A DNA stretch of 64,000 nt from contig NZ_CP024123.1 of the NCBI RefSeq assembly GCF_002736105.1, positions 1,914,001-1,978,000 of the forward strand, in the 5' to 3' direction. Made by a program: the position numbers and the translations under genes. The DNA is from Solibacillus sp. R5-41. GTDB lineage: Bacteria > Bacillota > Bacilli > Bacillales_A > Planococcaceae. Position 1 is the first letter of the stretch. Each line of letters begins with the position of its first letter. Under the pieces are notes generated by a model. That model saw only the letters and a list, made by a program, of their open reading frames with translations. It had not been told where the DNA came from and searched no databases. Positions 7,162 through 11,813 of this stretch are shown here, one piece after another.

Positions 7162-8388
7162 ATGAGAGATCATCTATGTAAAGAAGAAAAATGTAGAAAA
7201 GGAATTGAGTATCATCAAAGGTTTATTGAAGAAAATAGAGAAGAAATTAAAGGTTTGGAAGAAGATACGAAAAATGGAATACAAAGATATTCTAAAGATA
7301 ATAATAGTATTATTGAAAGTACCTATCTTTCAAGTTTTATTCATCAGATAGATGATACTAGTGCAAAATATTCTTTAGGGGATGACATTAGTACAATCGA
7401 AGAAGATTATCATAATGCCATAGATAATTTAGAGCAGACAGGAAAAAAAGAAGCAGGTTATATTAATATACTGTGGACAATTTCCTTAGGCATCTTACTA
7501 GAAACAGATAAAAAGAATATCGAAAGATTAAGTAAGGTAGTTGAGAAAAAGGAAATAAATGATGCAGTAATTGATTTTTTATTATGTGCTAGTGATATCG
7601 GATATACGAAAATCACCAATGAGTATGATAAAGAAAATCCGTACGCAAAAACAAGGGAAATTATAGATCTTGCGCAAACGGATAAGAAAGAAGCATCTAA
7701 AAGGTTACAAACGTATATGGAGAAAGAATGGTTTAAAGGTCATTATGATTATGATTGGAAGAATTCACATAAAGAGCCTGGATATGTAGGATATTGGAGC
7801 TTTGAAACGGCTGCACTGGCAAAGATTCTTGAGCTGGATGATACAAGCCTAGTAAATAACAATCATTATCCATATGACTTGGCACATTATAAGCATTCAA
7901 TGAAATTAAAGCCAATTTCCCTAAGTGACTACGACAATGAACAAGGGATTGAGGAGCTTTACATAATAGAAGGAATTGAAAAGAATCCTGCATTGGAAAA
8001 GGTGATTCCACCAAGATGGCACGCATTTGTTAATGAATTGATACAAGATTATAACGAGCTGGATAATCGTAGTTTTTATGAAAAATACAAAAAAACGATT
8101 GGGTTAGGGCAAATTTGGTTCTTATTAAAGGATTATGAAGAAGAAAATGAGGGGAAAAATCTTTTAGGAAGTTTAATTGTTTTTGCGATGGTTGAAAAAG
8201 GCTGCATATTGCAATTGGATTATAAAGAAGATTTGGAAGATTACGATTCAAATATAAAAAATTATTGGAATACAGAAACGAAATTGGTTCAATTTATATT
8301 AGATAATGATCAGAATTATTATGCTTTGGTACCAATTAATGTAGATGTTAGAGTTATGTATGAAGTTATCCTTCAAGATGTGAAGTAA
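7162..8388 (+). CDS. PoNi-type immunity protein (DUF1910/DUF1911), second copy
   Basis: An ATG behind AGGGAGGAA gives 408 residues, collinear with the copy at 2041. The DUF1911 signature (YWSFETAALAKILELDD, YPYDL) and the long C-terminal extension are both present. The N-terminal ~65 residues differ clearly from the first copy (for example HQRFIEENREEIKGLEED), and a second divergent patch covers residues ~88-104, while the rest is almost identical. This is a mosaic consistent with recombination between paralogues. It lies 23 nt behind the wreck of its toxin. It is retained intact, probably as protection against kin or neighbours that still deploy a PoNe toxin. Confidence 0.85.
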   Translation: MRDHLCKEEKCRKGIEYHQRFIEENREEIKGLEEDTKNGIQRYSKDNNSIIESTYLSSFIHQIDDTSAKYSLGDDISTIEEDYHNAIDNLEQTGKKEAGYINILWTISLGILLETDKKNIERLSKVVEKKEINDAVIDFLLCASDIGYTKITNEYDKENPYAKTREIIDLAQTDKKEASKRLQTYMEKEWFKGHYDYDWKNSHKEPGYVGYWSFETAALAKILELDDTSLVNNNHYPYDLAHYKHSMKLKPISLSDYDNEQGIEELYIIEGIEKNPALEKVIPPRWHAFVNELIQDYNELDNRSFYEKYKKTIGLGQIWFLLKDYEEENEGKNLLGSLIVFAMVEKGCILQLDYKEDLEDYDSNIKNYWNTETKLVQFILDNDQNYYALVPINVDVRVMYEVILQDVK

Positions 8389-9353: not shown

Positions 9354-10031
9354 ATGAAAAACGAAGAACTGTTTAAAAGAGAACAAGAAAAATGGATATC
9401 TAAGATTTCATTAAAAAATAATTTTGAGTTAGCAGATATTCATATGGTAGCTGGAATTGATATTGCATATTGGACAGAGGGAAAAGTAGATTATGGGGTT
9501 TGTTGTATTGTCGTAATAGATTATATTACAAAACAAATCATAGAAGAAGTAGAATATTGGGGACAAATAGATGTGCCATATATTTCAGGATATCTGGCTT
9601 TTCGGGAACTTCCTGTGGTAATGGAAGCAGCGAAAAAGCTGCAATGTAAACCGGATCTTTATATGTTTGATGGGAATGGCTATCTTCATTATAGGAATAT
9701 GGGAATCGCAACCCATGCTTCATTTTATTTAAATAAGCCTACGATAGGTGTTGCAAAAAGTTATTTGAAGATAAAAGATACGGATTTCCAAATGCCTAAA
9801 AATGAAATGGGTGATTTTACTTATATAGAGGTTGATGGAGATGTTTATGGGGCGGTGATGAGAACGAGAAAGGATGTAAAGCCCATTTTTATTTCATGCG
9901 GTAACTGGATTGATTTGGAGACTTCAATAAAAATAACTCTACATTTTGTAGAAAAAAATAGCCGATTACCAATTACGACACGTTATGCAGATTTAGCTAC
10001 TCATGAGAGTAGAAGAAAATATACTCAATAG
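9354..10031 (+). CDS. nfi: Endonuclease V
   Basis: Endonuclease V cuts DNA near deaminated bases, especially inosine. The 225-residue length fits the family. Conserved acidic residues are visible in AGIDIAYW (D36), YLAFRELP (E85) and MFDGNGYLHYR (D106), and the invariant-looking GVAKSYL follows. The gene starts 20 nt after the ywqK-like gene and ends before a terminator, so the two are probably cotranscribed. The same order (YwqJ deaminase toxin, YwqK antitoxin, endonuclease V) is known from Bacillus subtilis. A repair enzyme for deaminated bases beside a deaminase toxin suggests a second layer of self-protection, which is inference. Confidence 0.92.
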   Translation: MKNEELFKREQEKWISKISLKNNFELADIHMVAGIDIAYWTEGKVDYGVCCIVVIDYITKQIIEEVEYWGQIDVPYISGYLAFRELPVVMEAAKKLQCKPDLYMFDGNGYLHYRNMGIATHASFYLNKPTIGVAKSYLKIKDTDFQMPKNEMGDFTYIEVDGDVYGAVMRTRKDVKPIFISCGNWIDLETSIKITLHFVEKNSRLPITTRYADLATHESRRKYTQ

Positions 10032-10744: not shown

Positions 10745-11093
10745 AATTTACACACCCCCAATATAGTTGCTATTATTTCATTCTAATAATTAGACTTTTA
10801 ATCATGATGAAGGTTACAACAAATTTCATGACCTGACTTCACAATGAAGGTTAGTTTTCGAAGTGACCGAACAAAGATATAATGCTATTTTATATGAATT
10901 CCAATAATTAGATATTAATTGACAAAACTTTGGAAATAGATATATTGTTATAAAGAATCCCGTCGAGTAGAAAATGTTACACTGTATAGAGTCCGAATGA
11001 TAGTATCACTGAATTTGAATATGGCGATGCTATTTATTTAATGCATTGTTTCAGAATAATTTAAAGCATTTTCGCTCATGATTGTATTTATTT
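10745..11093. other. Intergenic stretch
   Basis: AT-rich sequence between divergent genes. Apart from the ribosome site of the minus-strand gene and the promoter listed separately at its right end, I see nothing. Confidence 0.4.
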
Positions 11094-11122
11094 TTGATTA
11101 TTAGGAACAAATGTTCTATAAT
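11094..11122 (+). promoter_or_regulatory. SigA-type promoter with a perfect LexA (SOS) box in the spacer
   Basis: A -35-like TTGATT (11094-11099) is followed after 17 nt by TATAAT (11117-11122). The spacer ends with GAAC-AAAT-GTTC (11105-11116), which matches the Gram-positive LexA/DinR box GAAC-N4-GTTC exactly and directly abuts the -10 element. A repressor bound there should block transcription of the SAP-domain gene that starts at 11155. Confidence 0.75.
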
Positions 11123-11154
11123 CGATATAAGTATATATGGAGGTGCAGCTTAAT

Positions 11155-11733
11155 TTGAGACCAAATCTAACAAAAGATATTAGTGTCGAAAGTTTTAAAG
11201 ATTTCTATTGGTTAAAGGAAGAATTGCAGTCATTTTGTAGAGAAAATGGACTTAGTGCTACTGGATCGAAAATAGAATTATCTGATAGAATTGAAATATT
11301 TCTTCAGACAGGTGAGATAAAAAAGCCTATCAGAAAATCAAGAGTCAATAAGAAGATAGAATCACAAGTAGATTTAAGTCTTGATACCTTCATTACGGAA
11401 AACCATCGTTGTAGTCAAGATGTAAGAGTGTTTTTTAAGGCAGTTATTCCGAAATTCCATTTTTCCACCTATATCCAAAACTACTTTAAAAACAATGTAG
11501 GAAAGACTTATCGTGATGTTGTAAATGCTTGGTATGAGGAAGAAGAACGACAGAAAGACCCATCATACAAGAAAAAAATTGGACCTCAATTTGAATACAA
11601 TCAATTCATTCGTGACTTTTTTGCAGACCAGAAAAATCAATGCAAAAGTCGTGAAGAAGCGATAAAAGCCTGGAATGAAATTAAGAAACTTTCTGGAAGC
11701 AACAAATATGAATCCAGTAATTTCCCCTTATAA
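11155..11733 (+). CDS. SAP-domain (DUF6434-like) protein, probably SOS-regulated
   Basis: I chose TTG at 11155 because GGAGGTG (11139-11145) lies 9 nt upstream; the in-frame ATG at 11137 overlaps that ribosome site. Residues ~10-55 (FYWLKEELQSFCRENGLSAT, then GSKIELSDRIEIFL) form a SAP-type helix-extended-loop-helix motif, usually nucleic-acid binding. The remainder has two repeats of a pattern (F/Y)xxFIRxFF...AWxE (FSTYIQNYFKNN...VVNAWYEE and YNQFIRDFFADQ...AIKAWNEI), as I recall from DUF6434 proteins. The promoter carries a LexA box, so expression after DNA damage is predicted. The molecular role is unknown. Confidence 0.8.
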   Translation: MRPNLTKDISVESFKDFYWLKEELQSFCRENGLSATGSKIELSDRIEIFLQTGEIKKPIRKSRVNKKIESQVDLSLDTFITENHRCSQDVRVFFKAVIPKFHFSTYIQNYFKNNVGKTYRDVVNAWYEEEERQKDPSYKKKIGPQFEYNQFIRDFFADQKNQCKSREEAIKAWNEIKKLSGSNKYESSNFPL

Positions 11734-11813
11734 ACACTTTGATATTTGAATTGTATGTTCAAGTAAGCCACAATCTATACGAAAACACCTTATTTTAATA
11801 GAAGGAGAACAAA

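Follow-up and report, generated by a model that had tools for sequence, protein, structure and literature searches.

Introduction

The closest described counterpart of the regulatory arrangement reported here is the LexA (DinR) regulon of Bacillus subtilis, whose operator, the SOS box or Cheo box, is given as GAACN4GTTC in two papers (PMC4234289, PMC2248561). In that regulon, as at the present locus, the operator lies over a promoter of the sigma-A type, and the host studied here also has recA, lexA and Y-family polymerase genes with such boxes. SOS regulons have been described as sets of resident repair, polymerase and checkpoint genes together with prophage functions. To our knowledge, the gene that concerns us, which encodes a protein with a SAP domain and a DUF6434 domain, is not part of the B. 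subtilis LexA (DinR) regulon.

The tIS, such as tISCpe8 and MTnSag1/tISSag10, are presented in PMC5704250 as IS1595-family insertion sequences with passenger genes. An IS1595-type transposase, inverted repeats and a passenger gene are common to the tIS and to the elements described below. The passenger differs, being a lincomycin resistance determinant on tISCpe8 (judging from a title cited there) and the SOS-box SAP-DUF6434 gene here; moreover, where examined, the SAP copies are transposase-less or accompanied by a decayed transposase. According to PMC3913671, mobile insertion cassettes such as MIC231 of Bacillus cereus and mic-qnrD have cargo between inverted repeats, no transposase gene and a target duplication. 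Two of our loci (L003 and L009, the latter with a transposase remnant of 34 residues) fit this description, but the ends are those of IS231 in the known cassettes and of IS1595 type here, and the cargo here has its own LexA-type box. IS1595 elements with passengers (PMC5704250), transposase-less insertion cassettes (PMC3913671) and the SOS box are all of known kinds.

The protein itself belongs to families described in Pfam, SAP_new25 (PF18953) and DUF6434 (PF20026), and both domains lie far above the Pfam cut-offs here. Pfam's DUF6434 entry gives no function, whereas the close, Bacillales-type homologues, and not the five distant ones, have an SOS box. Among the matches listed from the open-access literature we found neither a SAP-domain LexA/SOS gene in Bacillus nor DUF6434, and none of them, by its title and the start of its abstract, treats the SAP-DUF6434 gene.

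In the work presented here we describe this gene and its relatives. Taken as a whole, the observations make it probable that it is a LexA-repressed SOS gene, that it originated as a passenger of an IS1595-family element and that its SAP/DUF6434 product is a DNA-binding protein of the damage response.

Results

Promoter, box and gene

The features discussed are listed below. Positions are those of the window, that is, the whole 64-kb stretch of DNA that was analysed.

11063-11095, plus strand: expected place of the left inverted repeat, which is unrecognisable (1210 of 2000 shuffles as good)
11094-11099, plus strand: -35 hexamer TTGATT (sequence, promoter scan)
11105-11116, no strand assigned: LexA/SOS box GAACAAATGTTC, filling the promoter spacer (sequence; perfect box in 40 of 80 homologous loci)
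11117-11122, plus strand: -10 hexamer TATAAT, touching the box (sequence; TATAAT after the box in 23 of 40 perfect-box loci)
11137-11733, plus strand: mechanical open reading frame from ATG 11137, 198 aa (ORF finder)
11139-11145, plus strand: ribosome-binding site GGAGGTG (sequence; an aligned GGAGG-like run is kept in homologues)
11155-11733, plus strand: SAP-DUF6434 gene with a probable TTG start, 192 aa, predicted pI 9.1 (ORF list, homologue starts)
11188-11340, plus strand: SAP domain, PF18953 SAP_new25 with E 4.4e-25 and PF02037 SAP with E 1.5e-5 (Pfam)
11371-11538, plus strand: DUF6434, PF20026 with E 9.2e-14, holding the first helical unit with YIQNYF (Pfam, repeat analysis)
11578-11688, plus strand: second helical unit with FIRDFF, related to the first (models, repeat analysis)
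11765-11790, minus strand: right inverted repeat of an IS1595-family element, on the transposase-start side (match to the IS-end consensus; outermost bases approximate)

A first-pass annotation, made from the letters of the window, had described the box as directly abutting the TATAAT element with a -35 element at 17 nt, and direct reading of the sequence finds this description exact. The TTGATT/TATAAT pair is also recovered in a promoter scan with 10 of 12 hexamer matches; the scan gave 5 promoter-like sites in the region against 5.4 in shuffles. ATG 11137, with which the mechanical reading frame begins, overlaps the ribosome-binding site. Homologues begin at the codon equivalent to TTG 11155 and the conserved proteins start with (M/L)RP; for these reasons TTG 11155 is probably the true start. 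Further upstream, the window also includes a PoNi gene (7162-8388; PF08928/PF08929), of the kind that protects against PoNe-type polymorphic toxins, and an Endonuclease V gene (9354-10031).

Conservation of the SOS box

The box taken alone is not significant, since it occurs at chance level in both the window and the genome. GAACAAATGTTC is the sole perfect GAACN4GTTC in the 64-kb window, for which chance alone predicts 0.58; at least one turned up in 44 of 100 shuffles of the window. The 4.28-Mb genome has 18 perfect sites and 27 sites of a reversed control pattern, and significance drawn from the window or genome alone was rejected on these figures. A degenerate 14-base consensus with two mismatches was uninformative (63 matches, 72.6 expected).

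It is conservation upstream of homologues that raises the box above chance. The homologous loci analysed are the best 80 of 113, and a perfect box lies within 160 bases upstream of the gene in 40 of these 80. Allowing one mismatch raises the number to 56 and leaves 24 without a box; chance would give 0.041 boxes of this looser kind per 160 bases. Perfect boxes number 40 in the 12,800 upstream bases and 4 in the 649,723 other bases of the same loci, where their rate is 508-fold lower. TATAAT follows directly, as in the window copy, in 23 of the 40 loci with a perfect box. An alignment of 81 upstream sequences, made without selection for the box, shows the two half-sites at G78 A91 A93 C74 and G80 T95 T95 C81 percent. 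The adjacent -10 also stands out, and the bases around and between the half-sites are mostly at 38-67 percent, with one middle T at 79 percent. At least one of the one-mismatch boxes is out of position (L029, at -102). Because related loci share descent of their upstream regions, part of this conservation is not selection.

Within the genus, the eight copies other than that of the window comprise three with a perfect box (L113, L117, L118), three with one mismatch (L112, L116, L119) and two with none (L114, L115); two of these, L114 and L117, seem to duplicate L058 and L081, already counted among the 80 loci, and are not independent of them. Five distant homologues (L105, L106, L107, L109, L110), located on plasmids or a phage scaffold and coming from Sinorhizobium, Streptomyces, Arthrobacter, Vagococcus and a gut phage scaffold, have no box with one mismatch or fewer within 400 bases upstream. 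The homologue on a Niallia plasmid (L108) has a perfect box. The alphaproteobacterial LexA pattern is GTTCN7GTTC, and a scan of L105-L110 for it in either orientation found it in one of the six, the Sinorhizobium locus L105, at -379 and inside the upstream gene. This homologue (L105 4007-4582, on a Sinorhizobium medicae plasmid; 38 percent, without a GAACN4GTTC box) is flanked on one side by a gene for an amino acid adenylation-domain protein and on the other by one for an AMP-binding protein. Two loci, L037 (filed as a cyanobacterium, at a contig end) and L046 (filed as Roseburia), may represent contamination or be mislabelled; no conclusion depends on either.

Probable LexA control

The host genome encodes LexA and RecA. 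In the same genome a Y-family polymerase gene has a perfect box, CGAACAATTGTTCT, about 45 bases upstream, and boxes with one mismatch are found upstream of lexA (four) and recA (one). The conserved box of the SAP-DUF6434 gene, together with these like boxes, lends support to the first-pass prediction that the gene would belong to the SOS regulon. Lack of conservation of the box, which that annotation had named among the grounds for refutation, is not what the homologous loci show. The box overlaps the promoter and fills its spacer, as a LexA operator should, and LexA control of the gene is well supported in silico. Elsewhere in this genome, DUF6731 and DJ-1/PfpI genes (L094 519-1415, L095 799-1431) have a perfect GAACN4GTTC box 70-86 bases upstream and are possible extra SOS genes.

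The encoded protein

The 192-aa protein has a computed mass of 22.9 kDa and is basic, with a pI of 9.1. It scores 87.5 bits with SAP_new25 (PF18953; gathering score 26.3), 51.7 bits with DUF6434 (PF20026; 26.8) and 24.9 bits with PF02037 SAP (cut-off 23.9). Pfam therefore confirms the SAP domain named in the initial reading, and the two FIRxFF-type repeats noticed at the same time are real: they are the YIQNYF and FIRDFF of two related helical units, whose pairwise score of 56 was matched by none of 2000 shuffles and whose profile-profile comparison gave a probability of 93.7 and E 1.9e-7. NCBIfam returned no match to the protein, and a profile search of PDB sequences returned weak matches alone, none better than E 0.26; among them were several SAP domains as well as DNA polymerase beta. 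Membership of anti-phage or phage families was examined with PADLOC and PHROGs and set aside, the matches being unconvincing (best E 0.045 and 0.051).

Alignments of 62 rows (A2) and 46 rows (A3) served for the structural work. The whole-protein model (62-row alignment) is nearly all helical, with a mean pLDDT of 80.7 and a pTM of 0.47, and a separate model of the C-terminal half is more confident (pLDDT 87.8). For the N-terminal part, the best structural matches are SAP domains, that of 3'hExo (4l8r_E; Z 5.7, rmsd 1.4, 44 aligned) and 2do1 (Z 4.9); these matches are weak, with Z values below 8 and no Foldseek E better than 0.42. The model's agreement with solved SAP domains and a PF02037 score above the cut-off point to the helix-extended loop-helix fold of such domains. 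The C-terminal (DUF6434) model compared with the PDB gave nothing above chance (best Foldseek E 1.9, best Z 3.5), and this missing match is not evidence of a new fold. Judged from its domain content, the protein most likely binds DNA.

IS1595-type ends in relatives and in the window

The transposon context was absent from the first-pass annotation and is added here. TTAGGCTGTTTTCGTAAACTTTGTTG or a near-copy is found upstream of several close relatives of the gene and an inverted copy is found downstream in some. In two cases the inverted repeats are accompanied by perfect 8-bp duplications: L009, 940 bp in total, with TTTCATTA, and L003, 816 bp in total, with AATGGAAA. The target-site duplication of the IS1595 family is 8 bp, and a perfect one would occur by chance at about 3e-5 each for a set boundary. 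Both ends were found in 4 of 81 sequences, these two and L033 and L050, whose target duplications are imperfect (about 5/8 and about 7/8, respectively, judged by eye). Repeats that none of 500 shuffles matched are present on the left in 8 of the 81 sequences, on the right in 6 and on both sides in 4; the other 77 are without two recognisable repeats. The left count is partly circular, since some of these loci contributed to the left-end consensus.

Remnants of an IS1595 transposase lie just 3' of the SAP gene and antisense to it in five of 80 loci (L004, L005, L006, L009, L012); that of L012 is interrupted, its frame lying in two or more pieces. L039 was rejected as a sixth case, its transposase match being on the sense strand with 37.5 percent identity over 80 residues, a different arrangement. 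The same ends bound IS1595 elements without a SAP gene, L149 and L140, whose PF12762 transposases (316 and 274 aa) have an open frame. They also form the two ends of a unit of about 1.75 kb (L129/L145; G336:C218) in which a 113-aa passenger, apparently lipoprotein-like by its N-terminus, is followed by an antisense PF12762 transposase. From the antisense remnants behind the SAP gene and the passenger-transposase order of this unit, we infer an ancestral order of repeat, SAP gene, antisense transposase and repeat.

Ends of the same IS1595 type surround other genes, including a 123-aa membrane-type frame (L141) and a 194-aa cysteine-rich frame (L142), and a pair of them is present in L143; they may move diverse cargo. 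A 31-base inverted-repeat query against plasmids (E up to 10) returned 77 records, including Priestia, Paenibacillus, Cytobacillus and Pontibacillus; the Acinetobacter and Borrelia records among them are probably chance matches. At L053 (7332-7451) an IS1595-like end directly adjoins a GC-rich repeat-like sequence, which we take to be a common Bacillus repeat, and the two may together be a miniature derivative of the same transposon. Oceanobacillus manasiensis has two oppositely oriented copies of the SAP-DUF6434 gene (L004, L009) in one genome; some 21 kb separates them, and each has a perfect box.

The window copy retains a right end. TGTTTTCGTATAGATTGTGGCTT, on the minus strand at 11765-11787, shares 22 of its 23 aligned bases with the IS-end consensus and scores 21, a value reached by 0 of 2000 dinucleotide shuffles (largest 14); the ends of L126 and L145 contain exactly the same 23 bases. 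The left inverted repeat is unrecognisable and no IS1595 transposase was found in the window's own genome, which suggests that this copy is old and immobile. Carriage on a transposon is directly visible in a minority of copies and is presumed for the rest, that of the window included.

Distribution, gene tree and selection

Of 250 genomes from the order, 58 have the gene (fragments counted), representing 10 of 19 genera; within the genus it occurs in 9 of 16 genomes, its own included. Among 299 genomes drawn evenly from the phylum, DUF6434 occurs in one, the window's own, and so thin a sample evidently misses the gene. There is no conserved neighbour, the commonest neighbour family being found in 9 of 80 loci. 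A transposon-like cassette, as seen in several relatives, would explain this scatter across soil bacteria of the Bacillus group. Prophage origin is unsupported: no relatives were found in viral contigs and a phage collection gave two distant matches (45 and 28 percent identity).

The window copy is 60-80 percent identical to copies within the genus and up to 82-84 percent identical to those of other genera. The gene tree has 83 rows, comprising the window copy, 78 of the 80 loci (L076 and L082, where the frame as begun ran into a stop, were left out) and four of the eight genus loci; it is midpoint-rooted, its bootstrap had not settled, and 41 of its 80 inner branches are drawn open. Genus copies fall on opposite sides of the midpoint root and the window copy is closest to other genera. 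One of the genus copies pairs with a Solibacillus palustris record, which makes Solibacillus the probable genus. Boxes are found on both sides of the root, so that an ancestral box with later losses would be the simplest reading, on a tree whose inner branches are weak. The median dN/dS is 0.13 (maximum 0.42) for 596 pairs limited to 0.1<dS<1.5, indicating purifying selection.

Discussion

These observations suggest the following course of events. LexA bound to GAACAAATGTTC would cover the promoter spacer and the edge of the -10 and block RNA polymerase. DNA damage would activate RecA, LexA would then be cleaved and leave the box, and the gene would be expressed. The basic protein, with its N-terminal SAP domain and two helix-loop-helix DUF6434 units, would accumulate and bind DNA in the SOS response. 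The gene would have spread as a passenger of an IS1595-family transposon ordered as inverted repeat, LexA box with SAP gene, antisense transposase and inverted repeat. Later, most hosts would have kept the gene, often with its box, while transposase and repeats decayed. Purifying selection combined with loss of the transposase speaks for a protein that benefits the host and not the element alone. Its domains and its box indicate that it is most likely a damage-induced DNA-binding protein, which might protect ends, help repair or arrest the cell. More tentatively, and with somewhat less than even confidence, we suggest that by binding DNA during SOS it helps its carrier to survive or process damaged DNA, in a repair or tolerance role.

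Two features of this account, the operator and the mobile origin, have alternatives. The palindrome could be recognised by a different repressor, or simply reflect a conserved strong promoter, the gene then not being induced by SOS. As the box abuts the -10, with TATAAT behind it in 23 of 40 loci, promoter conservation could keep part of it, and one of its four middle bases is itself conserved (T, 79 percent). However, the GAAC half, which is not part of the -10, shows 74-93 percent conservation where the surrounding spacer and most middle bases reach 38-67 percent, the same genome has a perfect box at its Y-family polymerase gene and one-mismatch boxes at recA and lexA, and GAACN4GTTC is the published Bacillus SOS box (PMC4234289, PMC2248561). 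We consider this explanation very unlikely. That we are dealing with an ordinary, vertically inherited Bacillales gene which lies near IS1595 ends by coincidence seems hardly credible in view of the perfect 8-bp duplications around two copies, the transposase remnants in five loci, the absence of synteny and the placement of genus copies on opposite sides of the midpoint root, with the window copy nearest other genera (inner branches weak), even if the 77 of 81 sequences without two recognisable repeats would accord with it.

Other alternatives concern what the protein does. It might be an SOS-induced checkpoint, toxin or anti-phage effector, in the manner of YneA or abortive systems, instead of a repair or tolerance factor. 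We find this doubtful for a protein whose SAP domain is a nucleic-acid-binding one, which has no conserved partner gene alongside and whose PADLOC and PHROGs matches are unconvincing, while recognising that a small, solitary, patchily distributed and seemingly SOS-controlled gene with homologues on plasmids is the kind that could encode such an effector. It might also serve the transposon, binding its ends or acting on the transposase and so coupling transposition to SOS; its situation inside IS1595-bounded units or beside transposase remnants in some relatives, its predicted DNA binding and its probable SOS control all agree with such a role. Nevertheless, the frame and box persist without transposase and repeats, including in the window's own genome, which is without an IS1595 transposase, selection is still purifying, and some elements that share the ends and have an open transposase frame contain no SAP gene, all of which makes service to the transposon unlikely. 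A broader possibility, which we regard as speculative, is that an IS1595 element brings its own LexA-controlled helper as a portable damage module, either protecting the host or coupling movement to SOS, and that this module is domesticated once the transposase has decayed.

The reading that we retain, a LexA-repressed SOS gene of IS1595-family passenger origin, combines known kinds of component in what looks like a new way: among the matches listed from the open-access literature no LexA-controlled passenger on IS1595 ends was found, and the passenger status of the SOS-box SAP gene appears to be described here for the first time. The gene appears to carry its own LexA operator between genomes as transposon cargo and, since the operator travels with it, each arrival would enlarge the SOS regulon of the host without further evolution. 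It offers a direct approach to the role of DUF6434 and to the question of why damage control should be worth its place on an insertion sequence.
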